A stretch of DNA of 42,607 nt from Pseudobdellovibrionaceae bacterium (lineage in GTDB: Bacteria; Bdellovibrionota; Bdellovibrionia; Bdellovibrionales; Bdellovibrionaceae), in contig JACMMZ010000067.1 in assembly GCA_014378775.1 (NCBI GenBank), positions 1-42,607 on the forward strand, written 5' to 3'. Position 1 is the stretch's first letter, and each line of letters opens with the position of its first letter. A model generated the notes under the pieces. It worked only from the letters and a program-made list of their open reading frames with translations, searched no databases and was not told the DNA's origin. Shown one piece after another: positions 970 to 38,827 of this stretch. Both the position numbers and the translations under genes were made by a program.

Positions 970-984
970 TGGCATTGATGTTGC
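970..984 (+). promoter_or_regulatory. Candidate sigma-54 promoter P1 (TGGC-ATTGATG-TTGC)
   Basis: Exact -24 GG / -12 GC spacing (TGGC-N7-TTGC), 52 nt upstream of ATG 1037. Confidence 0.75.
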
Positions 985-1036
985 TAAATATAGTATGTAA
1001 CATGCATTTTGTCACAATGACATAAAAGGGGAAAGT

Positions 1037-1561
1037 ATGAATTCAATACCAATGAACAATATGGTTTTACCATTCAATCAGTTCAATAACTTGCTGCAAG
1101 CTTCAACTCGCACATTCAAAAGTTTTAAAAAAACTAAAAGGATTTTAATGATCGAAGACGATTCGGATATGTCTGATGTCCTATCTTATTCGCTCAAAAT
1201 AAAATTTAATTGTCATATTGATGTCGCCCAGGATCCGTTTGAAGCGATGAATATGATGGCAGATAAATTTTACGATATGATTATTCTCGACTGGCAGCTT
1301 CCGGGTTTAAACGGAACAGAAACACTGGCTCAAGCTGAAACCTTATTGCGCCTCGAACCCGGTCTACCTATTCAGTGGGACCGTGCTAAAGTCCCCGTAG
1401 TTATTTTATCCTCAGCAAAAAAAAATGAATGCCTCCCGCGCCGCACGAAACATTTTAATTACGTAGGTTTTATCACTAAAGCTCAACCTTTAGAAATGAT
1501 CGTAGATGCCCTAGGTGAACTAATTGAGCACGGAAAATCTTACCAGTATCAAACAGCTTAG
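1037..1561 (+). CDS. Stand-alone response regulator receiver (REC) protein
   Basis: ILMIEDDSDM...MIILDWQLPGLNG...VVILSS...FITKAQP REC signature; RBS aaaggggaaagtATG. Confidence 0.9.
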   Translation: MNSIPMNNMVLPFNQFNNLLQASTRTFKSFKKTKRILMIEDDSDMSDVLSYSLKIKFNCHIDVAQDPFEAMNMMADKFYDMIILDWQLPGLNGTETLAQAETLLRLEPGLPIQWDRAKVPVVILSSAKKNECLPRRTKHFNYVGFITKAQPLEMIVDALGELIEHGKSYQYQTA

Positions 1562-1584
1562 TCCGAATCAATTTCTATCTTTCA

Positions 1585-1622
1585 AAGCCGTTATCTAAGT
1601 GGTCATAAGACCACGACGGCTC
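1585..1622 (+). other. Interrupted hairpin downstream of the REC gene (agccgt...gtggtc-ataa-gaccac...acggct)
   Basis: Two nested inverted repeats; no T-tract follows. Confidence 0.4.
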
Positions 1623-1843
1623 ATTCAATATGACTTAATCACACTTTCACATCAAAAAATAAATTCTGCAGATTTTTAAAAGCTAAATCATTACCGATGA
1701 TGCCTGTAACAGGTTTTATCGGGAATTCTTCGTGTCGCATTTTGCCTCGCGACTGGTGTACCATTTTTCTCACGTTTTCAATGCGGTTTGAATCAGTTCT
1801 TCGTGAGAATATTTAGTGGTTTATTAAAGCATGAACCAATTCA

Positions 1844-1858
1844 TGGCCTTCCAATTGC
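1844..1858 (+). promoter_or_regulatory. Candidate sigma-54 promoter P2 (TGGC-CTTCCAA-TTGC)
   Basis: Exact TGGC-N7-TTGC, 58 nt upstream of ATG 1917. Confidence 0.75.
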
Positions 1859-1916
1859 TTTCTTTATGTTTATCGAGACAAGAGTTTCAATAACAATGAC
1901 AAAAGGAGAAAACCAA

Positions 1917-2054
1917 ATGAAAAATAAAAAGATGAGTGCCGCTACCAACAAACCGCAACAAACACCGCCTGTAAGTAAAAACTTAGGAACAAAGCAAACT
2001 CAACCGCCGACGACTTCAGCTGAAACAGCGGTTAAACCAAAAAACACAAAATAA
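1917..2054 (+). CDS. Small Pro/Thr/Lys-rich, probably disordered protein (45 aa)
   Basis: Start placed at ATG 1917 after aaaggagaaaacca; the upstream part of the listed ORF overlaps promoter P2. Confidence 0.65.
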   Translation: MKNKKMSAATNKPQQTPPVSKNLGTKQTQPPTTSAETAVKPKNTK

Positions 2055-2079
2055 ATATCTATTTATACAAAGGAACATT

Positions 2080-2373
2080 ATGGAAAATTCAGGAACGTAC
2101 ACTGGCAAGTCACCAAAAGATTCTTATAACAACGCAGCTTCAAAAGTTGACGGATATTCCAACTCGGTAGCTACCGGCGCTGAACGCGTATGGGAGAAGG
2201 CTAAAGATGTGGAAAAAACATTAGCGACGCGGTATCAATCGGTTAAAGAGATGGCTCTGGACGGGTACGATACAACGACAGAGGTTGTAAGAAAGTACCC
2301 TATGTCAACCCTAGTTGCCGCAACGGCGACAGGGTTATTTGCGGGGCTTTTGTTAGCGCGCCGAAAAAAGTAA
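2080..2373 (+). CDS. DUF883 / ElaB-YqjD-like membrane-anchored protein
   Basis: Helical N-terminal region, then C-terminal TM with small residues (STLVAATATGLFAGLLLARRKK); RBS aaaggaacattATG. Confidence 0.75.
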   Translation: MENSGTYTGKSPKDSYNNAASKVDGYSNSVATGAERVWEKAKDVEKTLATRYQSVKEMALDGYDTTTEVVRKYPMSTLVAATATGLFAGLLLARRKK

Positions 2374-2395
2374 AATTTTTGAGGTCTGCTCGGTT

Positions 2396-2431
2396 AAAAG
2401 GCTGTGAAATTTATTTCACAGCCTTTTTTTT
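2396..2431 (+). terminator. Intrinsic terminator
   Basis: ggctgtgaaat-tt-atttcacagcc stem followed by T8. Confidence 0.9.
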
Positions 2432-2528
2432 AGTGATAAATATTGGGGAAATTTTCACCCGAGTAAAATTTATTGTCCTATTCTGACCCGTAACCAAGTC
2501 TGAAAGCTTATTTGTCCGAGTACAAGCA

Positions 2529-2543
2529 TGGCCCTGGGATTGC
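2529..2543 (+). promoter_or_regulatory. Candidate sigma-54 promoter P3 (TGGC-CCTGGGA-TTGC)
   Basis: Exact TGGC-N7-TTGC, 55 nt upstream of ATG 2599. Confidence 0.78.
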
Positions 2544-2598
2544 AAAACTTTGACTTATTAAGAGATTCACAAACCCATCACATCAAGGAGATCTATTT

Positions 2599-2781
2599 AT
2601 GGTACGCGCAGCTATTTCGTTTTTTATCATCGCTCTGGTCGCCTATTTTCTAGGAGCGAACAGTATCGCCGGAGTTTCCATTGAAGTCGGTAAAATACTT
2701 TTGATTGTCTTCTTAGTACTATCGGTTATTTCATTTCTGGTCGCCGCAGTTACGGGAAAAAATCCACGTCAATTACCTTAA
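2599..2781 (+). CDS. DUF1328 (YtjA-like) small membrane protein
   Basis: 60 aa, two TM, MVRAAISFFIIALVAYFLGANSIAGVSIEVGKILLIVFLVLSVISFL; RBS aaggagatctatttATG. Confidence 0.85.
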   Translation: MVRAAISFFIIALVAYFLGANSIAGVSIEVGKILLIVFLVLSVISFLVAAVTGKNPRQLP

Positions 2782-2815
2782 TTACTAAAAATTTTATTTA
2801 ACAAAGGAGAACACT

Positions 2816-3073
2816 ATGAATTCATCAAACGAAAATATGATCAAAGGAAAATGGTTAGAAATCAAAGGCGATGTCCAAAAAGCCTGGGGAAAGCTAACTG
2901 ACGACGAACTCGAGAAAACTAAAGGTGATATGAAGTCCATCGGAGGCTTGATCCAGCAAAAATACGGACAAGAACAAGGTGCGTACGGTCAAAAACTTGA
3001 AGAAATCTTTAAGCGTTTTAAATCTGACAAAGAAAATACCGTTGACTCTATTAAAACTTCGCTCAAAAAATAA
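2816..3073 (+). CDS. CsbD-like stress protein
   Basis: MIKGKWLEIKGDVQKAWGKLTDDELEKTKGD CsbD pattern; RBS aaaggagaacact. Confidence 0.9.
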   Translation: MNSSNENMIKGKWLEIKGDVQKAWGKLTDDELEKTKGDMKSIGGLIQQKYGQEQGAYGQKLEEIFKRFKSDKENTVDSIKTSLKK

Positions 3074-3083
3074 GGAATAAATT

Positions 3084-3368
3084 ATGAATAACCTAACAAC
3101 TGATAAAATGAACAAAGTTAACAATGTCGCGAACAGCTTACTTAACAAAATTCCCGCATCACCGGATCAAATCGAAAACATGGTTCACCGTGTTGGCGAA
3201 AAAGCTGGTGAATTAACATCAAGTTTCACGCAAAAGGCCACTGACACGTTAGATAATAGTCGTGAATACGTGAAGGCTAACCCGGTTAAAGGCGTCGCTA
3301 TTGCTGCTGTCGCCGGCATTGCTGTTGGAAGTTTGTTAACTTTGATGTTCAGCCGCAAGGAACATTAA
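3084..3368 (+). CDS. DUF883 / YqjD-like membrane-anchored protein (second copy)
   Basis: Amphipathic helix plus glycine-rich C-terminal TM (NPVKGVAIAAVAGIAVGSLLTLMFSRKEH). Confidence 0.75.
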   Translation: MNNLTTDKMNKVNNVANSLLNKIPASPDQIENMVHRVGEKAGELTSSFTQKATDTLDNSREYVKANPVKGVAIAAVAGIAVGSLLTLMFSRKEH

Positions 3369-3385
3369 TCGTCTGTATGAGATGC

Positions 3386-3428
3386 AAAAAAAGGTAGGAT
3401 TTCTTAAATGGAGTCCTACCTTTTTTTT
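3386..3428 (+). terminator. Intrinsic terminator
   Basis: aaaaaaggtagga...tcctacctttttttt. Confidence 0.88.
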
Positions 3429-3440
3429 ATGGAAGGTCCT

Positions 3441-3800
3441 ATGAGTATCAAAAATTTTGCTTCGGCTCTTATTGTCAAAGTTATTGTCGGTCTCGTATTA
3501 GTCGCAACAACAGTGATTTCCATCGTTCACTTTTTACAGCTTTATCACGAATACCTCACGCAATTCTCCAACGGGGCTCTGATTGAAACTTCAACCTATT
3601 CCGTGATCCTCATCGGTTCTGTCGTCGGTCTTTATTTTCTGCTCATTGATAAAAACGAAAAAAAATCAGAAAAATCTATTTCATCTTTGGTGGCCGCAAT
3701 TCCATTAAGCATGAATGTTGAATCTCTGGGCTTGCAATTTTTAGACGGATTTATGAATGGTCTGACCAAGAAGAAAACAAACAATCCTACTACATTCTGA
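3441..3800 (+). CDS. Hypothetical small integral membrane protein
   Basis: Two TM segments; start moved to ATG 3441 (MSIKNF) because the upstream part of the listed ORF lies in the terminator. Confidence 0.65.
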   Translation: MSIKNFASALIVKVIVGLVLVATTVISIVHFLQLYHEYLTQFSNGALIETSTYSVILIGSVVGLYFLLIDKNEKKSEKSISSLVAAIPLSMNVESLGLQFLDGFMNGLTKKKTNNPTTF

Positions 3801-5124
3801 TATTTTTAATGAACAGAATTTGTCTGTAAATCAGGAAAAAACTGATGATGAAAAATGGAGTTCCGGGCATTATCGGTAAAATTGCACCGATCACTCCTAA
3901 TAAGAAAAAAACCGCTGCCCCGCACAACCTGATCAGACTATAGAATTTATTTTTATTGTTATCTTCTTGGTAGGTTAAGGTCACAGACATGTTAGCCACA
4001 ATGGATAAAAGAATATAAAACATAAATCGTAAGCATTTAATTCGGAAAGTCGAATTTTTTGAAAAGTTGTCCCAATTTATTTTTTCACAACCGGTCTCAA
4101 TAAGATTATTCAAAACACGATCCCACTCTGCCGTGACCGGAGTGGATAATACATCAATATTCATTTCAAGATTTTGCTGATAACTTGTATAATTCAAATT
4201 AAATGATCCGACGGTCGCAAAATGGCCATCGACCGTTGCCATTTTTCCATGAAGAACGGAATTCTTCCATTGATAAATTTCGACATTGCGTTTTAGAAAG
4301 TAAGCATACAAATATTCTGAGGCTAAAATATAACTAGGCCAGTCCGAAATCCGCGGAAGAATTAAGCGAACTTTGACGCCCCTTTTTGCTGCCGCCACCA
4401 GTTGTTTTTTAAATTTAGCACGTGGAAAAAAGTAGGCATTCACAATCGTGATTTCACTTTGAGCCTGATTAATGAGTTTGGAATAGGTCTGAGCTATTTG
4501 CCACCGGCGATAAACCCAATCATTTATTGATATTCTTAATACGACATCACTTAATCGGGTCTGAGCGACAACTTGCGGGATTTTCGCCAGCTGCAATTTT
4601 TTTCCAAAAGATTTTTTGAACAGGGATTGGCCGTAACGAGTTAATTCGATGACCACGGGTCCCTGCAAATCAACGGCGAAATCAAGCTGGTGAGGCGACT
4701 GCGGAACATGTTTATAATTGGAATTAGTGACGTTAATTCCTCCGACCAGACCGTGCTGGGCATCAACTAAAAGAAGCTTATGGTGAAGCCGCCGTCCAAC
4801 TCTCAATAATCCCTTGTAAGTAAAAACATTGAACCTTTGAAACATGACCGAATTTTGACGAAGTGATTCTTCATCCAGCGCACTGAAATTTCTAGATCCG
4901 ATGTTATCTATCAAAACGCAAACTTGAACGCCTCGTTGAGCCGCCCGAATCAGGGCCGCATGTACGTGCGATCCAAATTCATCCATTTCAAAAATATAGG
5001 TTTGAAGATGAATCGATGTTTGAGCTCCATCAATCAACTGGATGTAGTAATTGAAATAATCAGGACCTTCAATCAAAAGATTGACTGCTGTACCTCGGGT
5101 GGATTGAGGCAAATTATGTTGCAT
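3790..5124 (-). CDS. Cardiolipin synthase / phospholipase D family protein with C-terminal DUF454-like membrane tail
   Basis: Two PLD HKD motifs (HHKLLLVDAQHGLVGGINVT; LHGKMATVDGHFATVGSFNLN); C-term FFLLGVIGAILPIMPGTPFFIISFFLIYRQ. Start MQHNLPQ chosen to reduce overlap with the upstream gene. Confidence 0.9.
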   Translation of the reverse strand: MQHNLPQSTRGTAVNLLIEGPDYFNYYIQLIDGAQTSIHLQTYIFEMDEFGSHVHAALIRAAQRGVQVCVLIDNIGSRNFSALDEESLRQNSVMFQRFNVFTYKGLLRVGRRLHHKLLLVDAQHGLVGGINVTNSNYKHVPQSPHQLDFAVDLQGPVVIELTRYGQSLFKKSFGKKLQLAKIPQVVAQTRLSDVVLRISINDWVYRRWQIAQTYSKLINQAQSEITIVNAYFFPRAKFKKQLVAAAKRGVKVRLILPRISDWPSYILASEYLYAYFLKRNVEIYQWKNSVLHGKMATVDGHFATVGSFNLNYTSYQQNLEMNIDVLSTPVTAEWDRVLNNLIETGCEKINWDNFSKNSTFRIKCLRFMFYILLSIVANMSVTLTYQEDNNKNKFYSLIRLCGAAVFFLLGVIGAILPIMPGTPFFIISFFLIYRQILFIKNIRM

Positions 5125-5872
5125 GGGTTTTAACTTCGCAGAAAAGAGGTAGATGATCGGAAAAATGATTTCCTTCAACTTGTGGCAGCGTGTAGGAATG
5201 GACGATTTTTAGATTTTTGACATAAATACGGTCCAGACTGAGCATCGGTAATCCTGCCGGAAAAGTCTTAGCGTACATACCGTGTTGACCTTTATAAACT
5301 TCGGTCATGTTCATTTCTTTTTCCATAACCATTGAAGCTTGCTTGTTCCAGTCATTAAAATCACCCGCCAGGATCAAGGGGGCATCGTCGGGAATTTTTA
5401 AATTTTCAATATATTTTTTAATCATTTGGTACTGCTTTTTGCGACCACTATGAAGTAAATCAAGATGAACACAAATCACGTAAACGCTTTGACTTTTATC
5501 CTTGAGCTGAATCTGGCAACACAATAACCCTCGTTGCTCCATAAAATTTGTAGAAATATTTTTTTGCTCCCAACTGAGAATGGGATAATGGCTTAGAATA
5601 AGATTGCCATGATGACCATAATCAAAAACAGCATTTTTGGCGTAAGAATAATGTGGCCAAACAGAATCAGCGATGTATTCAAATTGTTCATCGATGAGGC
5701 CTTTTTTTTTATATTTATTGCTTTGACCGACGACTTCCTGCAAAAGCACAATATCGGCATGAGACATTTGAATTAAATTTTTGATGTCTTTAAGGAAATA
5801 ATTTTTTTTATTCCAATCAAAGCCTTTGTGTATATTGTATGTTAATACTTTAAGTTGCATATCTTCATACAA
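5114..5872 (-). CDS. Endonuclease/exonuclease/phosphatase family protein (YbhP-like)
   Basis: LTYNIHKGFDWNKK...ADIVLLQEV...LILAGDFNDWN...HFSDHLPLFCEV EEP motifs; upstream of and overlapping the cls-type gene as in E. coli ybhP-clsB. Confidence 0.9.
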   Translation of the reverse strand: MYEDMQLKVLTYNIHKGFDWNKKNYFLKDIKNLIQMSHADIVLLQEVVGQSNKYKKKGLIDEQFEYIADSVWPHYSYAKNAVFDYGHHGNLILSHYPILSWEQKNISTNFMEQRGLLCCQIQLKDKSQSVYVICVHLDLLHSGRKKQYQMIKKYIENLKIPDDAPLILAGDFNDWNKQASMVMEKEMNMTEVYKGQHGMYAKTFPAGLPMLSLDRIYVKNLKIVHSYTLPQVEGNHFSDHLPLFCEVKTHAT

Positions 5873-5874
5873 TC

Positions 5875-6408
5875 CTACTTTTTCATAAAGATCATGACAA
5901 TACTTTTGGAAGCTTGGGCTTCGTTATCAAATAATCCCGTCTGATCAGCCGTCGGGGCTGCCCCGGCCATTTCGGTCGTTTTCTTTACTTTTTCAGTCTG
6001 GGTATGGAATAATTTTTGTAAGGCGTTCGGTCTTTCAGTCATGTTGTAAGTCGCGACATCGGAGACTCTCAGGCCTTTTAAAAAAGATTTTACGTCAGAT
6101 AATCTTTTTTTGGCAAGCTTAACATCTTCGCGGCTTTGTTTACCGGATGTAGACGGATATTCTTTATCCGACCAAGCCAAAATTTTAACTTCGGCTATTT
6201 GTCCGGCCCGCTGGGCCTCTTGGACAGCCGATCTTAATTCGTCTTTATATGTTTGAGTTAAAGCCGAGCTGGTTTTTTCGAAAGTTATTTCTTTGATCTG
6301 AGAAGCTCCCAGCAAAAGACCCGCGTCCTGACTGTTGGTCCAAGCCGATGCTTGCAAAGCTCCCAAAAAAGTTAAAGCAAATACAATTCGTAAAAAATAA
6401 TTTTCCAT
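5875..6408 (-). CDS. Secreted OmpA-like (peptidoglycan-associated fold) protein
   Basis: Signal peptide (MENYFLRIVFALTFLGALQASA) and OmpA_C-like region (ITFEKTSSALTQTYKDELRSAVQEAQRAGQIAEVKILAWSDKEYPS...AKKRLSDVKSFL). Confidence 0.6.
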   Translation of the reverse strand: MENYFLRIVFALTFLGALQASAWTNSQDAGLLLGASQIKEITFEKTSSALTQTYKDELRSAVQEAQRAGQIAEVKILAWSDKEYPSTSGKQSREDVKLAKKRLSDVKSFLKGLRVSDVATYNMTERPNALQKLFHTQTEKVKKTTEMAGAAPTADQTGLFDNEAQASKSIVMIFMKK

Positions 6409-6448
6409 AATTTTCTCCTTTGCCTTTACAAGACATATTCCAATTGGT

Positions 6449-6463
6449 GCAAGCCTGAAGCCA
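6449..6463 (-). promoter_or_regulatory. Candidate sigma-54 promoter P5 (minus strand TGGC-TTCAGGC-TTGC)
   Basis: Plus strand gcaa-gcctgaa-gcca; exact spacing, 40 nt upstream of ATG at 6408. Confidence 0.75.
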
Positions 6464-6483
6464 AAGTAAAAGATAGAATCAAA

Positions 6484-7899
6484 CTACATCATCATCGATG
6501 TATCTGGATGTGCGTTATTATCAATTTCTCGCAACCGACGATACAATGTTTTACGATCTATTTTTAAATCTTTAGCAGTTTTCTCTTTGACCCCATGATT
6601 CAGCTTAAGGATATGCTGAACATACTTATTAACCAATTCATCTACGGTCAAAATTTTTGATTCACCAACAGTCGGGAACTGAAACTGTGCCTTATCCGTT
6701 TCAACTTCGGTGGTTTGAGCCAAAGTCACCACATCATCATATTGAATCACATTTTGATTCGAAAGCACCACGGCACGCTCAATCGTGTTCTCGAGTTCGC
6801 GCACATTTCCCGGCCATTTATTATTCATCAAATACTCTAAAGCTTCCTTACTCAGCTGCTTTATAGCTGTTCCGTTCGTCACAGAAAATTTTCGGATGAA
6901 AAATTCAGACAACGGAAGAATATCTTCTTTTCTCTCGCGAAGTGGTGGAATTCCTATCGGGATTACATTTAAACGGAAGAATAAATCTTCGCGAAAGTTT
7001 TTATTTAGGATCTCTTGCTTTAAATTTTTATGAGTCGCGGATAAAATGCGAACATCAATCGGCTTATACTGATTTTCACCCACCCGCTTGATTTTTTTCT
7101 CTTGAAGGACGCGCAAAAGCTTGGCTTGCAAAGGTAAGGACATATCGCCGATTTCGTCTAAAAACAAAGTGCCGCCCTCGGCTTCTTCAAACAATCCACG
7201 GCGCTTTTCTGCGGCTCCAGTAAAGGATCCCTTAGCATGACCAAATAATTCAGATTCGAGTAAATTTTCTGGAATAGCCGAACAATTTATAGCGATAAAA
7301 GGTTCTTTTTTACGAGGACCCATGGCGTGAATGGCTTTGGCGATGACTTCTTTACCCGTTCCACTTTCACCGGTAATTAAAATATTAGCAGTTGATTTAG
7401 CAACCCTCCGAGCTAAATCGAGAGCGTTTCTTAAGCCTTGGCTTTTACCAACGACACCTTCAATACTGGTTTGCCCCGCTTGCAATTGAACCACGCTTTT
7501 GAGCGTGGTGTTTTCTTCTTTTATTTTATTTAAGAAAAGTGCGCGCTCTACTGAAACTAAAAGCTGCGGAAAATGCAAAGGTTTAACCACAAAGTCGTAG
7601 GCTCCAGCTGCAATAGCTTCAACCGCAATTTCTACTTTTTTATTTGCCGTGATTAATATGATCGGCAACGAGTTTCCGGCCATTTTCATACGCTGGGTGA
7701 ATTCAATTCCTGAAAGTCCTGGCATCATCAGATCGGTAATGATCACATCGGGATCCACTTTGTTTTGATTAATATCATCTAGTGCTTTTGCGGCGTCACC
7801 GTAAACTAAAAGTTCGTAGTCACGCACGCGGAAGAAGCTTGAAATAAGATCTTGGGTATCTAAGTCGTCGTCGATAATAAGAATTTTTGCTTTTTTCAT
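6484..7899 (-). CDS. NtrC-family sigma-54-dependent response regulator (REC-AAA+-Fis HTH)
   Basis: REC ([11 protein letters not shown]...[11 protein letters not shown]), Walker [15 protein letters not shown] loop, [10 protein letters not shown]-terminal HTH ([22 protein letters not shown]). Confidence 0.97.
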
Positions 7900-8253
7900 T
7901 TGTTTATCCTTTTGAGGAAGCTCTTACGAGCGTATTGTGTGTATTTTTGCCCCGTTAACACTGTAGCCAATTTTCAGCTTTTTTCAAATATTTTTTGATT
8001 TTTGATTATAAACGGGGTGAAAACGGTACACTTAGTCTGTTATTTAAGCATAATTAAACTTATTAACGCTTTAAAAAGAATCAAGTGATTTTAACAATAT
8101 TTTTATTAAATTCGCAGGCGAGACTTTCATTTCAATAAATGACAACCAGATGATGTCGGCAAAAGGTGAGATATATTTCCCGTGCTTTGGATTTCCTCCA
8201 CACTAAAATGCCCCCCCAAACCTGCTCCACCCCATCAGGCTAATCAACAGGGG

Positions 8254-8268
8254 TGGCACTTCGATTGC
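8254..8268 (+). promoter_or_regulatory. Candidate sigma-54 promoter P4 (TGGCAC-TTCGA-TTGC)
   Basis: Near-consensus TGGCAC-N5-TTGC, 52 nt upstream of ATG 8321. Confidence 0.82.
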
Positions 8269-8320: not shown

Positions 8321-8542
8321 ATGGATAATTCCCCTCGCAAAAATACCCCTTCTGATAGTGCACCGAATCCAGACTCACATGTGAAACCAAGCGATACAGA
8401 CAAGGTTAAGCCGACCCCTGAAGTACCTGAAAGAGTCGCGAGCCAGCCCGAAGTTGACCAGGACCCGGCGCACCACCCTGAGCCGGAGCTTCCAAATGAG
8501 CTTTACAACGAAACTTTACCACCAGATACTCGTGTAATATAA
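8321..8542 (+). CDS. Small Pro/Glu/Asp-rich disordered protein (73 aa)
   Basis: Start placed at ATG 8321 after acaaggagttcact; composition P, E, D, S. Confidence 0.65.
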   Translation: MDNSPRKNTPSDSAPNPDSHVKPSDTDKVKPTPEVPERVASQPEVDQDPAHHPEPELPNELYNETLPPDTRVI

Positions 8543-8553
8543 AGTGAGGCTAC

Positions 8554-8832
8554 ATGTCAGGGATTGATATTCCAGAAGAAATGAAAGCTAAATATATCGA
8601 GCGAAGAAAACAAGACTACGACGATTGTATAGCCGCGTTCGACAAAAGTGATTACGAAGTTTTTCTTCGTATCGGTCACCAACTCAAGGGTAACGCCTCA
8701 AGTTTTGGATTTGATGATTTGGGAATGATCGCGTCTGAAATAGAACATGGGGCTCAACTCAAAGATTTACCTGCACTCAAAATTTCGTTGAAAAAATTTG
8801 ATGCTTTTTTGCAAAGAAAAACTAACAAATAA
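8554..8832 (+). CDS. Stand-alone histidine phosphotransfer (Hpt) protein
   Basis: HQLKGNASSFGFDDLGMIASEIEHGAQ Hpt motif (HxLKGxxxxxG). Confidence 0.85.
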   Translation: MSGIDIPEEMKAKYIERRKQDYDDCIAAFDKSDYEVFLRIGHQLKGNASSFGFDDLGMIASEIEHGAQLKDLPALKISLKKFDAFLQRKTNK

Positions 8833-31631: not shown

Positions 31632-31666
31632 AAAAGCATGACAAAATCACTGTTTTCGTGAAATCT

Positions 31667-31692
31667 GTAACCTTATGTACAATCGGAGCGTA
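31667..31692 (+). promoter_or_regulatory. Candidate autoregulatory ECF-sigma promoter (GTAACC-N16-CGTA)
   Basis: GTAACC 31667-31672, 16-nt spacer, CGTA 31689-31692. Confidence 0.7.
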
Positions 31693-31699
31693 TACACAA

Positions 31700-32233
31700 G
31701 TGAATGAACGGGAAGATCAACTTAAAAACTTGTTTCTTTTAGCTAAAGATAATGATGAGCAGGCCTACAAAGCTTTACTCGTCGAGATCTCGGGGCTTCT
31801 GCGTGCTTACCTGCTGAAGCTGATGAGTCCTCGTATCAGATCAATAGAACGCGCCGAAGATTTGGTCCAGGAAATCTTGATCACGATTCATCGCAAGCGT
31901 GATCTTTATTCGGTCGACCGCCCGTTTCTTCCTTGGATCTACGCCATCGCGAAGTACCGCTTTATCGATTCTTTGCGGGCGGAATCAAGAAATCCAGAAT
32001 TTGAAGAATGGACAGCACAACAGGATTCCCGCATGTTTTTACCGACCGCCCAAAAGGCTGATGAAGAAAACACTGATGAGATTTTACAAGGACTGACCGC
32101 TCAGCAAAAAGCCATCCTCACGATGGCTAAAGTGGAAGAAGTTCCCCTGAAGGAAATCGCAGAGCATTTTAAAATGTCTGTTTCCGCGGTTAAAGTAACG
32201 ATACACCGAGTTTTAAAAAACTTAAGAATGTAG
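31700..32233 (+). CDS. ECF RNA polymerase sigma factor
   Basis: Region 2 (AEDLVQEILITIHRKRDLYSVDRPFLPWIYAIAKYRFIDSLR) and region 4 (EVPLKEIAEHFKMSVSAVKVTIHRVLKNL). GTG 31700 preferred over the track's GTG 31658 because the candidate promoter lies between them. Confidence 0.9.
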   Translation: MNEREDQLKNLFLLAKDNDEQAYKALLVEISGLLRAYLLKLMSPRIRSIERAEDLVQEILITIHRKRDLYSVDRPFLPWIYAIAKYRFIDSLRAESRNPEFEEWTAQQDSRMFLPTAQKADEENTDEILQGLTAQQKAILTMAKVEEVPLKEIAEHFKMSVSAVKVTIHRVLKNLRM

Positions 32234-32238
32234 AAAAT

Positions 32239-32898
32239 ATGTTAAAGACAGAAAATTTAATTTCAAGACTTTGCGGAGATTTAAAAAATCCCAGTGCATC
32301 AAAAAATTGGTTTGCACAGTACTGGTCTATTTGGACTTTGTTCGCACTTATTTTAACAGCGTTAACCTACGGTATTTCTGTTTTAGCTCCTGAAGAAGCG
32401 CACCTTCCAGAAAATTTAGGAACTTCGGTTTTTAAAATAGAAGTGCTCATGTGGTTCGGTGTCGCGATCCTCTCGTCGATCATTGCTTACCTCAGTTCTG
32501 TTCCTCAAAAATCAAAAGGCTTTCTCATTCCCATCGCTTTTACGGCTTTGACGGTCCTTGTAGCTTCGTTGTTCTTCCGTTTTAATTATGCGCACACGGT
32601 TCAAGATTTTGCGATTGAATTGAATCTGCACCGAGCCGGGTGCGGGATGTTTATTGCCGCTTCTGCAGCTATTTCGACTTGGACTTTATTTTATGTCATG
32701 AGACGAGCCGCTGCTCCGCTTCACGTGCAAACAACAGCAACCTGGGCTGCGCTCAGCTTAGGAGCTTTTTCTGCGATGCTTATGCACTCTGTGTGCGTTC
32801 ATGTATCTGCAGCTCATATTATTTTATGGCATGCTTTACCCATGATCTTGACCGTTGTATTGGCTCGTTTTACTTCAAAAACTTTACTTCGCTGGTAA
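32239..32898 (+). CDS. NrsF / DUF1109 membrane anti-sigma factor
   Basis: Six TM; LHRAGCGMF...RRAAAP...SLGAFSAMLMHSVCVHVSAAHIILWHALPM with two conserved-type Cys; adjacent to the sigma gene. Confidence 0.85.
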   Translation: MLKTENLISRLCGDLKNPSASKNWFAQYWSIWTLFALILTALTYGISVLAPEEAHLPENLGTSVFKIEVLMWFGVAILSSIIAYLSSVPQKSKGFLIPIAFTALTVLVASLFFRFNYAHTVQDFAIELNLHRAGCGMFIAASAAISTWTLFYVMRRAAAPLHVQTTATWAALSLGAFSAMLMHSVCVHVSAAHIILWHALPMILTVVLARFTSKTLLRW

Positions 32899-32901
32899 TG
32901 T

Positions 32902-34155
32902 ATGAAGATTGCAATTATCGGCTCCGGCATTTCCGGATTGACCTCGGCCTATCTGCTTTCAAAAAAACATGACGTTACCGTCTTTGAAGCGAACGATTAT
33001 ATCGGCGGTCACACCGCCACGGTTGACGTTGAAGTTCCGTCAGGAAAATACGCTATAGACACTGGATTTATTGTTTTCAATAATTGGACTTATCCCAACT
33101 TCATCAAATTGATGACCAATTTACAAGTGGCTTGGAAAAATTCCTCGATGAGCTTTAGCGTCAAGTCCCAAAGAAGCGGGCTTGAATACAACGGCACCAC
33201 CCTCAATTCTTTATTTTCTCAAAGATCTAATTTTTTTCGGCCGAGTTTTTACCGCATGGTTTTTGATATCATGCGGTTTAACAAAGAATCCATCGAAGTT
33301 CTCGAATCTCCGCATGACGAAGTTTTAGGAGAATATCTTAAAAAAAGAAATTACTCTGACGAATTTAAAATGAATTACATCATTCCCATGGGAGCCGCCA
33401 TTTGGTCGGCGTCGGCGGAACAAATGGATCTTTTTCCAATTGAATATTTTGTTCGTTTTTTTAACAATCACGGGATGCTTTCGGTCAGTAATCGTCCCGT
33501 TTGGAAAGTGATTGAAAAAGGATCAAGGTCTTACATCGGTCCCTTGATTCAGAATTTTAAAAATAATATTTTTTTAAAAACCAAGGTCCTACAAGTTCAG
33601 CGCGAAAATGACCAGGTTCGGCTGATCACTGAAACCGATGGCCAAACATCACAGCATAACTTCGATCAAATTATTTTTGCTAGCCATTCAGATCAAACAA
33701 TGCAAATGCTGACTGACATGACTCCGCTTGAAAAAGCCATACTTGGGGGATTTTCTTATCAACCCAATTCGGTGGTCTTACACACTGACCTTAGTGTTTT
33801 ACCAAAGCGCCGGTTGGCCTGGGCGGCATGGAATTATTTTATTCCTCAAGCTGATTCAGGTCGAGTGTCCGTGACCTACAATATGAACATCCTACAAGGC
33901 CTAAGCGCACCTGAAACTTTTTGCGTGTCGTTGAATATGGATGCTCAAATTAATCCGAGAAATATTTTACGATCGTTTACTTATGATCACCCTGTCTTTA
34001 CCCGTGAAGCCTTTAATTCTCAGAAACGCTGGAATGAAATCAGCGGAAAAAATAGAACACATTTTTGTGGAGCTTATTGGGGTTACGGATTTCATGAAGA
34101 CGGCGTCAAAAGTGCTCTGCAGGTTTGCGGATCTTTCGGAGAGCATCTGACATGA
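32902..34155 (+). CDS. FAD-dependent amine oxidase / flavin oxidoreductase of the CFA-cluster type
   Basis: IAIIGSGISGLTSAYLLSKKHDVTVFEANDYIGGHTATV dinucleotide-binding motif; downstream DUF1365 and CFA genes. Confidence 0.92.
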   Translation: MKIAIIGSGISGLTSAYLLSKKHDVTVFEANDYIGGHTATVDVEVPSGKYAIDTGFIVFNNWTYPNFIKLMTNLQVAWKNSSMSFSVKSQRSGLEYNGTTLNSLFSQRSNFFRPSFYRMVFDIMRFNKESIEVLESPHDEVLGEYLKKRNYSDEFKMNYIIPMGAAIWSASAEQMDLFPIEYFVRFFNNHGMLSVSNRPVWKVIEKGSRSYIGPLIQNFKNNIFLKTKVLQVQRENDQVRLITETDGQTSQHNFDQIIFASHSDQTMQMLTDMTPLEKAILGGFSYQPNSVVLHTDLSVLPKRRLAWAAWNYFIPQADSGRVSVTYNMNILQGLSAPETFCVSLNMDAQINPRNILRSFTYDHPVFTREAFNSQKRWNEISGKNRTHFCGAYWGYGFHEDGVKSALQVCGSFGEHLT

Positions 34156-34937
34156 ATTTTCAAAGCGCAGTCTACTCTGGAATACTTCACCACCGAAGAC
34201 TCGCACCAAAATATCATGACTTCAAATACCGTGTGACTTTTTATTATCTAGATCTGGCCGAAATCGATGGTATTTTTAAAGTACCGTTACTTTTTTCCAA
34301 CCGCCCGCCTTTTGTTTTTGGATTTAATCGAAAAAATTATCTGGCCGGCGCCGATTCATTAACTCAAGCGGTTCAAGATCTTATTTTAAACAAAACCGGA
34401 AAAAAGCATGAGGGATCGATTCGCATGCTGTCACAGATTACTTATTTCGGATTTTGTTTTAATCCCGTCACATTTTATTACTGCATGAACCAGATAAATA
34501 CGGACGTCGAATTTATCGTGGCGGAAATCACTAATACACCGTGGAATGAGCGAAAAGCCTACGTGTTTGAATGTGAACCGGGAAAAACTCAATTTGAATT
34601 TCAGTTCGAAAAAGATTTTCACGTTTCGCCCTTTTTTCCGATGAATCTTCACTACGTTTGGAAATTTAAAAAACCCACGCCAGCCGACGCTAAATCGACC
34701 TTAAGTGTTTTTATGGAAGACTGGAATGAAACTAAAACCGAATGTGTGTTCTTCGCGCACCTGACATTAAAACCAAAAAGTTTAACTCCATTTAACATTG
34801 GTCTAAACCTTATTTTGTTTCCCTTCATGACGGTAAAAACTGTGGCGGCTATTTACTTTCAATCTTTTTTATTGTTAATTAAACGAGTTCCCTTTTTTAC
34901 GCATCCGGCCAAAAAAGCGCCTAAGCCAGGAGTATGA
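34152..34937 (+). CDS. DUF1365 family protein
   Basis: YSGILHHRRLAPKYHDFKYRVTFYYLDLAEID...LSQITYFGFCFNPVTFYYC; ATGA overlap with the upstream gene. Confidence 0.92.
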   Translation: MNFQSAVYSGILHHRRLAPKYHDFKYRVTFYYLDLAEIDGIFKVPLLFSNRPPFVFGFNRKNYLAGADSLTQAVQDLILNKTGKKHEGSIRMLSQITYFGFCFNPVTFYYCMNQINTDVEFIVAEITNTPWNERKAYVFECEPGKTQFEFQFEKDFHVSPFFPMNLHYVWKFKKPTPADAKSTLSVFMEDWNETKTECVFFAHLTLKPKSLTPFNIGLNLILFPFMTVKTVAAIYFQSFLLLIKRVPFFTHPAKKAPKPGV

Positions 34938-34938
34938 T

Positions 34939-36198
34939 ATGAAGCTCAATAACACCAATACCCATGCCCGATCTGAACCCGCGCTGGGTTTCATAGATAA
35001 TATCATACGTTCCCTATTTTTAAAAAAACTGAGCACAATTCAGAACGGCCAATTGGAAATTATCGAATGTTTTAACGGTTTTGAAAAGCACCACATCTTT
35101 GGAACTAAAACTTTAAATCAGGATCTTCATGGCACAATTAAAGTTTTTAATCCGCAATTTTATTCGCGCATTTTATTTGGCGGCACGATCGGCGCCGGCG
35201 AAAGCTTTATGGACCACGATTGGGAATCTCCCAACTTGGCACAACTGATTCAACTTTTAGCTCGTAACCGTGAGCTGCAAACGGGACTCGACACCGGTTT
35301 GGGATGGCTGATGGCGCCCGGTCGAAAAATATATCACGCCTTTAATAGAAATTCGATGAGCGGCGCCAAGAAAAATATTCATGCTCATTATGATTTAGGA
35401 AATGATTTCTTTAAACTTTTTTTAGACCAAAATTGGATGTACAGCTCAGCTATTTTTAAGTCCGAAGAAACTTCATTAGATGAAGCCCAGTTTGAAAAGG
35501 TCGATCGCATCTGTCGAAAATTAAGATTAAAACCTACCGACCGCGTGATTGAAATTGGCACCGGTTGGGGCGGGTTTGCTCTGCACGCGGCGAAGCACTA
35601 CGGCTGTCACGTGACGACCACCACCATTTCTAAACAACAGTACGATATGGCCGTCGAGCGTATTAACCAGGCCGGATTATCTGATCGGGTGACGATTTTA
35701 TTACAAGATTACCGCTTACTTGAAGGCACTTTTGATAAATTAGTTTCGATCGAAATGATTGAAGCCGTGGGGCTTAATTTCTTAGACACTTATTTTGCCA
35801 AATGCTCAGCTTTACTTAAACCCCAGGGTGAATTTTTATTACAGGCTATCACCATTCGGGATCAGTACTATGAAGCCGCGAAACAATCGGTGGATTTTAT
35901 CCAGCGCTATATCTTTCCCGGATCAGGTATTCCATCAATTGAAAGTATTTTGATGTCCACCAGCTCGCACACGGATCTTCAATTGGCGCACTTAGAAGAT
36001 TTTGGTTTAGATTACGCCAAAACGATCCATATTTGGAACGAACGGTTAATCGCCAATCGTAATCAAATCCTTCAACAAGGTTATTCGGAATCACTTTACC
36101 GCATGTGGCAATTTTATTTTGGCTATTGTGAAGGGGGATTTTTAGAGCGAAGCATTGGCGTATCACAATTTCATTTCCTCAAAGGAGGCCGTCCATGA
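34939..36198 (+). CDS. Cyclopropane-fatty-acyl-phospholipid synthase family
   Basis: HYDLGNDFFKLFLDQNWMYSSAIF; VIEIGTGWGGFALHAAKHYGCHVTTTTIS; YIFPGSGIPS. Confidence 0.95.
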   Translation: MKLNNTNTHARSEPALGFIDNIIRSLFLKKLSTIQNGQLEIIECFNGFEKHHIFGTKTLNQDLHGTIKVFNPQFYSRILFGGTIGAGESFMDHDWESPNLAQLIQLLARNRELQTGLDTGLGWLMAPGRKIYHAFNRNSMSGAKKNIHAHYDLGNDFFKLFLDQNWMYSSAIFKSEETSLDEAQFEKVDRICRKLRLKPTDRVIEIGTGWGGFALHAAKHYGCHVTTTTISKQQYDMAVERINQAGLSDRVTILLQDYRLLEGTFDKLVSIEMIEAVGLNFLDTYFAKCSALLKPQGEFLLQAITIRDQYYEAAKQSVDFIQRYIFPGSGIPSIESILMSTSSHTDLQLAHLEDFGLDYAKTIHIWNERLIANRNQILQQGYSESLYRMWQFYFGYCEGGFLERSIGVSQFHFLKGGRP

Positions 36199-37244
36199 CA
36201 TTTATGATCGACGCCATGGAAAAGGGTTGGTTACCCGATGTGGCTATTCGCTTCGGCATCCGAAAATTATGCCGCGAACGACTTATCTCGTTAGCTCAAC
36301 CCAGTAGTGATCTCGATGAAAAAATGATGAAGCAGTACGTAGATATTCTAAAAAAATCGGCTTTAGCGGTTCACACGCAAGAAGCTAATGAACAGCATTA
36401 TGAATTACCGCCAGAATTTTTTTCGCTGGTTTTAGGAAAAAATAAAAAATACAGCTCCGCTTTCTGGTCGGAGAGCTGTCAGGATTTAAATCAAGCTGAA
36501 GACGAAGCTTTGCAAACAACCTTGGACCGGGTCGAAATTACCGACGGCATGCAAATTCTTGAATTAGGTTGTGGTTGGGGATCGTTGACATTATCCATGG
36601 CCAAGCGATATCCCCGATCAAAAATTGTGGCCTTATCTAATTCTCGCCCTCAACGGGAATGGATTGAAGCCGAAGCCCAAAAGCGTGGTTTAAGTAACGT
36701 GACGGTACTGACGCGAAATATTGCACAGGTCGAAGATCTGGCCGCGGAATTTGGTCCGTTTGACCGCGTAGTCAGCGTCGAGATGTTTGAACACCTCAGA
36801 AATTATGAACTACTTTTTCAAAAGATTTCCAGCTGGATTAAATCTGATGGAAAATTGTTTGTGCATATTTTTACCCATAAAAAATATTCTTATTTTTTTG
36901 AAACCGAAGGCGAAGATAATTGGATGGGTCGCTATTTTTTCACCGGCGGTCAAATGCCGGCTCACCGCCTTTTCTATCAATTTCAAAATCATCTTCAAAT
37001 CGAAAAAGACTGGACTTGGAATGGGTCCCATTACGGTAAAACATCAGAAGCCTGGTTGACGAATATGGATTCTCATCAAAATGAAATCATGAAAATTTTT
37101 GAACCGGTTTATGGATCCCAAGCTCAGATTTGGTTTCAACGTTGGCGCGTATTTTTTATGTCCTGTGCTGAATTGTTTAATTACGCTCAGGGGAATGAAT
37201 GGGGCGTGTCTCATTATCTTTTCACAAAAAAAGCAGGAGTTTAA
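36195..37244 (+). CDS. CFA-synthase-related SAM methyltransferase, coclaurine-N-methyltransferase-like branch
   Basis: EQHYELPPEFFSLVLG; ILELGCGWGSLTLSMAKRYP; WMGRYFFTGGQMPAHRLFYQFQ; GSHYGKTSEAWL. Confidence 0.88.
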   Translation: MTFMIDAMEKGWLPDVAIRFGIRKLCRERLISLAQPSSDLDEKMMKQYVDILKKSALAVHTQEANEQHYELPPEFFSLVLGKNKKYSSAFWSESCQDLNQAEDEALQTTLDRVEITDGMQILELGCGWGSLTLSMAKRYPRSKIVALSNSRPQREWIEAEAQKRGLSNVTVLTRNIAQVEDLAAEFGPFDRVVSVEMFEHLRNYELLFQKISSWIKSDGKLFVHIFTHKKYSYFFETEGEDNWMGRYFFTGGQMPAHRLFYQFQNHLQIEKDWTWNGSHYGKTSEAWLTNMDSHQNEIMKIFEPVYGSQAQIWFQRWRVFFMSCAELFNYAQGNEWGVSHYLFTKKAGV

Positions 37245-37245
37245 T

Positions 37246-37581
37246 ATGAAACATGGCAGTTTGGTTATTTTTTTCTCTTTGATTTTAATTTCGATTATCG
37301 CTGTGACCTCTTATGCAAGTTTAGAGCAAAACGTCATGCAAGGATTCGAATATCTTTTTGCTAGCCGCTGGGGTATCGCAACTTTATTTGACACCTACTT
37401 CGGATTTTTAACCATTTATATTTGGATTGCTTACAAAGAAGTGACTTGGAGTAAACGCCTTTTGTGGTTGGTTCTAGTGTTAACGATGGGAAGTATTGCT
37501 TTTTCTATTTATATTTTGAATCAACTCAGACTTTTAAAGGATGGACCGATTGAAAATCTTTTGGTGCGAACGCAAAAATGA
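37246..37581 (+). CDS. DUF1475-like small membrane protein
   Basis: Three TM; SLEQNVMQGFEYLFASRWGIATLFDTYFGFLTIYIWIAYKE; start at ATG 37246. Confidence 0.65.
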   Translation: MKHGSLVIFFSLILISIIAVTSYASLEQNVMQGFEYLFASRWGIATLFDTYFGFLTIYIWIAYKEVTWSKRLLWLVLVLTMGSIAFSIYILNQLRLLKDGPIENLLVRTQK

Positions 37582-38051
37582 AACAAAAAGCCCAAGAATT
37601 TTTCCAAAGAAAACTGACCGCACCGATCAAAAGGCAAATCCAGCAAGGCGCAACCCCACACGGTATGGCATTAACGGTGGCTTGCGGTATAGCGATAGCG
37701 ATTTTTCCCCTGCTTGGTAGCACCATGCTGTTGTGCTTGATCGCTGGAATCGTTTTAAAATTAAATCAACCCGTCTTGCATGCCGTAAATTATATTCTTT
37801 ATCCACTTCAACTTATTTTAATTCCAGTTTTTTTGAAATTGGGGGCCCGACTTACAGATTCAACTCCGATTACATTTGATCCGTTGTTGATCATTCATGA
37901 GTTCAGTACGGATCTCGGCTCATTTTTTACTAAATACGGAACCGCCGGACTCCACGGCGTTTTGGTGTGGCTGATTGCGGCCCCTCCGATCGTGGGGATT
38001 TCTTATCAAATTCTGATTCGCATTTTTAAGAAATGGAAAAAACCTGCATGA
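37578..38051 (+). CDS. DUF2062 membrane protein
   Basis: GATPHGMALTVACGIAIAIFPLLGSTMLLCLIAGIVLKLNQPVLHAVNYILYPLQ. Confidence 0.85.
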   Translation: MKQKAQEFFQRKLTAPIKRQIQQGATPHGMALTVACGIAIAIFPLLGSTMLLCLIAGIVLKLNQPVLHAVNYILYPLQLILIPVFLKLGARLTDSTPITFDPLLIIHEFSTDLGSFFTKYGTAGLHGVLVWLIAAPPIVGISYQILIRIFKKWKKPA

Positions 38052-38827
38052 TTAAATTGATTATTATTTCTTTTATATTGAATTGTTTAATTATGGTGGG
38101 AACCTGGGTTTTTTCTCGAAATAAAAATAACTACAGCATTGTCGATGCGGTATGGGCTTTTTCTTTTTTTGTGACCGGTGGATTTTACGCTTTTCTAGGT
38201 GATGGTTTGCTGGAACGCCGGTTGCTGATGTTGTTGTGCATCGGGATCTGGAGTCTTCGACTGGGGCTTTTTTTAGCTCGAAGAATAGCATCGCATCACC
38301 CGATCGAGGACAGCCGCTACGTGGAGCTTCGTAAAGGTTACGGAGATCATGTGGAACGCGGATTCTTCTGGTTTTTTCAGTACCAGGCCTACAGCGTAGT
38401 TTTATTATCAGCCCCTTTTTTACTGATGGCCCTGAATACCGATCCACACATTCAATTTTTAGAGTACACCGGAATAGCTTTATTTTTTCTTTGCCTATTA
38501 GGCGAATCTGTTTCAGATCACCAAGCACAAGTATTTAAAAAAAATCCGGCCAATAAATCAAAAGTTTGTAATGTGGGACTTTGGCATTATTCCCGTCACC
38601 CGAATTATTTTTTCGAAAGTGGTATTTGGTTTTCCTTTTTTATTATGGCTTACAGCTCTCCGTACGGAATCTACAGCTTGTATGCGCCGCTTTTGATCTT
38701 GTTTCTTTTGCTGAAAGTGACCGGCATTCCTATGGCAGAATCACAATCACTTAAAAATCGCGGCGAAGCTTACCGGGAATATCAAAAAACCACTTCCAGT
38801 TTTATTCCCTGGTTTCCCAAAAAATAA
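38048..38827 (+). CDS. DUF1295 (steroid 5-alpha-reductase-like) membrane protein
   Basis: SIVDAVWAFSF, RHPNYFFESGIWFSFF, NRGEAYREYQKTTSSFIPWFPKK; start at ATG 38048 by ATGA overlap. Confidence 0.9.
   Translation: MIKLIIISFILNCLIMVGTWVFSRNKNNYSIVDAVWAFSFFVTGGFYAFLGDGLLERRLLMLLCIGIWSLRLGLFLARRIASHHPIEDSRYVELRKGYGDHVERGFFWFFQYQAYSVVLLSAPFLLMALNTDPHIQFLEYTGIALFFLCLLGESVSDHQAQVFKKNPANKSKVCNVGLWHYSRHPNYFFESGIWFSFFIMAYSSPYGIYSLYAPLLILFLLLKVTGIPMAESQSLKNRGEAYREYQKTTSSFIPWFPKK

Follow-up and report, generated by a model that had tools for sequence, protein, structure and literature searches.

NtrC-family two-component regulons, such as those of NtrC, ZraR, AtoC and GlrR, combine a kinase partner with an activator of REC, AAA+ and Fis-type helix-turn-helix (HTH) domains, which works on sigma-54 promoters through palindromic enhancers lying upstream of them. 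In the phage-shock system, membrane-protective genes are likewise placed under a sigma-54 activator, PspF, which has no receiver domain and is controlled by PspA. The general stress regulons of RpoS, EcfG and AlgU include gene families that recur below, namely CsbD, ElaB/YqjD, OsmY/BON and hemerythrin, and the response-regulator sigma-54 activators DVU1419 and DVU3381 of Desulfovibrio vulgaris have been assigned to envelope stress (PMC4641369). The locus described here occupies positions 970 to 8,268 of contig JACMMZ010000067.1 (C204) from a Pseudobdellovibrionaceae bacterium, where five sigma-54 promoter elements surround an NtrC-type activator gene. A stress regulon that depends on sigma-54 and is governed by that activator is likely to have its core in this region. 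The group concerned consists mostly of uncultured relatives of predatory Bdellovibrio, in which one regulator appears to switch on small stress-protection genes via sigma-54.

Sigma-54 elements of the island

The analysed stretch, called the window, is the entire contig of 42.6 kb in a genome assembly of 2.34 Mb. A preliminary description of its sequence had reported five exact TGGC-N7-TTGC elements at short distances from start codons; all positions and strands were confirmed, and the spacings proved correct when read on the sequence. The elements, designated P1 to P5, are as follows.

970–984, + strand: P1, sigma-54 -24/-12 element TGGCATTGATGTTGC, exact match, 52 nucleotides (nt) upstream of the lone REC gene (start codon 1037)
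1844–1858, + strand: P2, sigma-54 element TGGCCTTCCAATTGC, exact match, 58 nt upstream of a disordered peptide gene (start codon 1917)
2529–2543, + strand: P3, sigma-54 element TGGCCCTGGGATTGC, exact match, 55 nt upstream of the DUF1328 gene (start codon 2599)
6449–6463, - strand: P4, sigma-54 element TGGCTTCAGGCTTGC, exact match, 40 nt upstream of the OmpA-like/EEP/ClsB-like operon (start codon 6408, - strand)
8254–8268, + strand: P5, sigma-54 element TGGCACTTCGATTGC, exact match, 52 nt upstream of the genes for a PNxLYxExLPP peptide and Hpt (start codon 8321)

Dinucleotide shuffles of the window give an expectation of 1.44 elements (standard deviation 1.19), with five reached in one of 100 shuffles. 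Genome-wide, exact elements number 56 compared with 78 for their backward counterpart, so the element itself is not enriched and the anomaly is the local cluster of five in 7.3 kb. By our own arithmetic, the Poisson probability derived from the genome-wide density is about 1e-6 for any single such stretch, and of the order of 1e-3 once the number of stretches is allowed for. The genome also encodes rpoN, the lack of which had been named as a refutation, and the elements show the -24 GG/-12 GC pattern with correct spacing.

Conservation of the locus in related genomes

Orthologues of the activator share 75–89% identity in six congeners and 61–65% in other genera and families of the order, and their neighbourhoods repeatedly hold Hpt, a hybrid kinase, a lone REC protein, CsbD, DUF1328, DUF883 and an OmpA-like protein. 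The intact kinases adjoining them are mostly of CHASE-HisKA-HATPase-REC architecture. CsbD and DUF1328, where present, mostly occur in one copy per genome, and in 22 of 34 genomes an orthologue-like activator has one of them or both no more than 12 kb away, often less than 1 kb; at such copy numbers, about one genome would be expected by chance (own arithmetic). Occurrence of the activator is also associated with that of CsbD or DUF1328 (Fisher p ~0.001, uncorrected for relatedness).

The promoter elements recur together with the activator, as the check on their conservation in related genomes had demanded. Element counts were controlled with TGGC-N7-TTGC read backwards (the reversed element). 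Within 4.5 kb of activators of at least 60% identity in ten other genomes, 19 elements fall in 94 kb, against 4 in the 92 kb of the same loci lying outside; the reversed element occurs 3 times near the activators and 4 times outside. Additionally, 14 exact elements and no reversed ones stand upstream of 82 DUF1328, CsbD or BON matches, a set in which a few loci overlap one another and the window's own sites are included.

Loci, genomes and contigs are numbered with L, G and C, respectively, G000 being the window's own genome. Three genomes (G005, G013 and G022) carry two activator paralogues each, of which the copy with 64–75% identity mostly lies beside a hybrid kinase and the copy with 57–58% identity beside DUF1328, suggesting that the island has been split or duplicated there.

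A shared enhancer palindrome

An expectation-maximisation search of 15 merged upstream stretches from seven relatives, with the window excluded, yielded the palindrome NKGGGCAWATWTGCCCMN, which scored 41.5 compared with 25.3–29.2 for dinucleotide shuffles. This motif replaced an enhancer guessed by eye, GTGTACCGTTTTCACCCCG, which was dropped; motif discovery limited to the five window promoters gave nothing convincing. When the whole window was scanned with the relatives' motif, the two best matches fell within the island.

2443–2460, no strand assigned: enhancer (upstream activating sequence) TTGGGGAAATTTTCACCC, best match in the window, 69 nt upstream of P3 (86 nt from start to start)
7937–7954, no strand assigned: enhancer GTGTGTATTTTTGCCCCG, second-best match, upstream of the activator gene

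Of the 24 activator orthologues tested, the window's included, 14 have a site with p<=0.05 in the 300 nt before their own gene, which suggests autoregulation; the enhancer at 7937–7954 would probably serve the activator's control of its own gene. Genome-wide, seven sites lie within two mismatches of the core pattern, and the one at P3 alone is followed by a sigma-54 element, so the other six provide no new targets. An enhancer-like palindrome lacking a sigma-54 element was also seen upstream of a photolyase-like gene (L246, contig C84 of G000, 1501).

Pairing the enhancer sites with downstream TGG[CT]-N7-TTGC elements gave 38 pairs, compared with 3 for the reversed element. The distances within these pairs cluster near 54, 66, 76, 87 and 98 nt (Rayleigh R 0.57 at 10.5 bp, n=38), and site finding made no use of phasing. 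Among loci outside the training set that have a downstream open reading frame (ORF), R rises to 0.81 (n=14, p 1e-4; p 2e-4 with one entry per enhancer). As read from the sequence, this clustering places enhancer and promoter on the same helix face, a spacing expected where an activator touches the polymerase across a short loop. One further candidate, on contig C247 (L098), lacks a clear ORF and has just 27 nt between enhancer and element; it is not claimed as a member.

Putative targets at each promoter

Paired sites, that is, an element together with the enhancer, were found at the relatives' counterparts of the island genes. For P1, REC orthologues carry them in the loci of four relatives (L063, L064, L065 and L068), which lends support to the earlier proposal that the lone REC gene is under feedback control. 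The closest parallel to P2 is a DUF883 gene in L140. For P3, DUF1328 genes have equivalent sites in L072, L131 and L146, with a weaker case in L143, while OmpA-like orthologues of the P4 unit have them in L062, L074 and L078. At P5, homologous peptides are preceded by both sites in L063, L064 and L065. Further paired targets comprise CsbD, a hemerythrin and BON proteins. In the window's own genome, a BON gene on contig C255 (L099, 1501–2977), convergent with an adjoining hybrid-kinase paralogue, has a sigma-54 element and a weaker enhancer, and is likely to be a distant regulon member.

Two proteins of relatives were also noted behind such sites: an 88-aa protein without a Pfam match (L064, 18600–18931), preceded by a near-perfect enhancer and a sigma-54 element, and a 187-aa protein (L068, 4584–5235), preceded by a strong enhancer (16.5 bits) and a sigma-54 element, whose ActD match is sub-threshold only.

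Genes of the island

Pfam backs the earlier domain assignments for REC, DUF1328, CsbD, EEP, the PLD/cardiolipin-synthase family, the NtrC-type activator and Hpt; the two DUF883 calls, which cover the glycine-zipper part only, and the OmpA call fall below Pfam cut-offs and are plausible.

3–884, + strand: hybrid histidine kinase, C-terminal part (HATPase and REC by Pfam), the remainder lying off the contig
1037–1561, + strand: lone receiver (REC) protein (Pfam 1.1e-13)
1917–2054, + strand: short disordered peptide, no family in Pfam
2080–2373, + strand: DUF883-like (ElaB/YqjD type) small membrane protein (PF19029 6e-4, below cut-off)
2599–2781, + strand: DUF1328 small membrane protein (PF07043 1.3e-10)
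2816–3073, + strand: CsbD-like stress protein (PF05532 2.2e-12)
3084–3368, + strand: DUF883-like protein with an ElaB-like C-terminus (PF19029 1e-5, slightly under cut-off; ElaB model 7e-5)
3790–5178, - strand: cardiolipin-synthase-like PLD protein (top NCBIfam model ClsB, under its cut-off)
5114–5872, - strand: EEP-family protein (PF03372 1.7e-17)
5875–6408, - strand: OmpA-like protein, conserved beside the activator (five-homologue alignment; Pfam OmpA only 0.033)
6484–7899, - strand: NtrC-type sigma-54 activator with REC, AAA+ with a GSFTGA loop, and Fis-type HTH (Pfam)
8321–8542, + strand: disordered peptide with C-terminus PNELYNETLPPDTRVI, a motif kept in four genomes; no Pfam family
8554–8832, + strand: Hpt phosphotransfer protein (PF01627 3.6e-8)

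The kinase gene is incomplete because it is cut by the contig end. In the activator, the REC domain, the AAA+ sigma-54 interaction domain and the Fis-type HTH all score over their Pfam cut-offs, and the sigma-54-contacting loop is intact, reading GSFTGA in the window and GAFTGA or GSFTGA in orthologues, in which the HTH is also conserved. The GSFTGA variant is also present in DVU3220 (PMC4641369).

The peptide at 8321–8542 and its counterparts in L063, L064 and L065 make up one family: all are short and disordered and end in PN-x-LY-x-E-x-LPP, and a sigma-54 element precedes each. Farther along the window (31658–38827), a gene for a putative sigma-70-family factor is followed by genes for a membrane protein, an amine-oxidase-like protein, a DUF1365-like protein, two cyclopropane-fatty-acid-synthase-like proteins and a DUF1295-like protein, a cluster that we take to resemble those of ECF/ChrR type for membrane or photo-oxidative stress.

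The proposed regulon and its alternatives

In the proposed mechanism, the CHASE-type hybrid histidine kinase would sense an extracytoplasmic signal and pass phosphate via the Hpt protein to the NtrC-type activator. The activator would then bind palindromes near NKGGGCAWATWTGCCCMN, which share a helix face with the TGGC-N7-TTGC promoters and usually precede them by about 53–101 nt. From these sites it would drive sigma-54 RNA polymerase both at the genes of its own relay (REC and Hpt) and at small protective genes, namely DUF1328, CsbD, DUF883, the OmpA-like/EEP/ClsB-like unit and the distant BON protein. The idea of a sigma-54 regulon centred on this activator, put forward in the preliminary description, gains good support from conservation in other genera and families, the shared palindrome and the helical phasing. 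For the relay from kinase through Hpt to activator, gene adjacency is the evidence found. The label of envelope stress had been drawn from the gene families, and CsbD, DUF883/ElaB-like, BON/OsmY-like, hemerythrin and ClsB-like proteins would fit a general, osmotic or stationary-phase set equally well.

Several results weigh against this regulon. A strong enhancer stands in the window at P3 alone among the five promoters: the best match at P1 reaches 2.6 bits, P2 has a weak candidate at 112 nt (8.4 bits), P4 has no match (1.5 bits), and P5 has a weak in-phase candidate 88 nt upstream (7.0 bits). Part of the motif scores derives from the training loci. A fresh set of 42 DUF1328 loci gave only four pairs (none reversed), too few for phase, although its elements outnumbered those of the control by 27 to 9. 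Orthologues at 50–60% identity show little enrichment of elements, 7 near and 4 outside.

A regulon that is real and serves a non-stress role, for example a life-cycle or attack-phase switch, is a somewhat unlikely alternative. The relatives are Bdellovibrio-like, most B. bacteriovorus genes belong to attack-phase or growth-phase classes (PMC3627812), and the CHASE sensor of the kinase points to no specific signal. Against this, the targets that recur come from families with stress links in other bacteria: in Sphingopyxis, CsbD is controlled by EcfG (PMC7083833), in Azotobacter AlgU governs CsbD as well as BON and hemerythrin proteins (PMC10651043), and the osmotic and stationary-phase genes of E. 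coli include elaB, yqjD, yjbJ and osmY (PMC2634741). Rather improbable is a second alternative, in which the sigma-54 promoters are real and answer, in part or all, to another enhancer-binding protein, with only P3 and its own gene left to the local activator. NtrC-like proteins with E<=1e-80 number at least five in the genome, and a strong enhancer of the palindrome type is missing at four of the five promoters; however, orthologues of the P1, P4 and P5 genes bear that enhancer in relatives, and conservation of gene linkage also speaks against this alternative. That five copies of an 8-base pattern came together here by chance, with genes expressed from sigma-70-type promoters, is very hard to credit, since the lack of genome-wide enrichment and the one shuffle in 100 that also reached five are set against independent recurrence near orthologous activators, the paired enhancer and the helical phasing.

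No RpoS match above the TIGR02394 cut-off was found in 37 genomes of the order. Given this and the stress ties of the target families elsewhere, a general or envelope stress regulon is the best reading, by family resemblance. A broader proposal, that Bdellovibrionales run through sigma-54 and a dedicated, phosphorelay-fed activator the general stress response that sigma-70-family stress factors control elsewhere, is put forward tentatively, as a possibility that may well fail. Open-access papers on Bdellovibrio that deal with sigma-54, RpoN or CsbD yielded no description of such a regulon. For a predatory lineage with no RpoS detected in the genomes searched, the regulon names one particular activator, an enhancer and a set of targets as predictions; it would bring widespread and poorly understood small stress proteins (CsbD, DUF883, DUF1328 and BON) under sigma-54, and is directly testable in cultured Bdellovibrio relatives.

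Comparison with known systems

The text of the D. vulgaris study that assigned sigma-54 activators to envelope stress (PMC4641369), searched for cardiolipin, OmpA and Hpt, yielded none of the three. In contrast to PspF, the window activator has a REC domain, and the island showed no psp genes. Unlike the NtrC-family regulons, the system of the window has a hybrid kinase with a putative Hpt relay, another enhancer and other targets; its activator scores far under the NCBIfam cut-offs for AtoC, NtrC, ZraR and GlrR, reaching 362 bits with the ZraR equivalog model against a cut-off of 760. The RpoS, EcfG and AlgU regulons are governed by sigma-70-family factors, whereas here the switch would be sigma-54 together with an ATP-driven activator.

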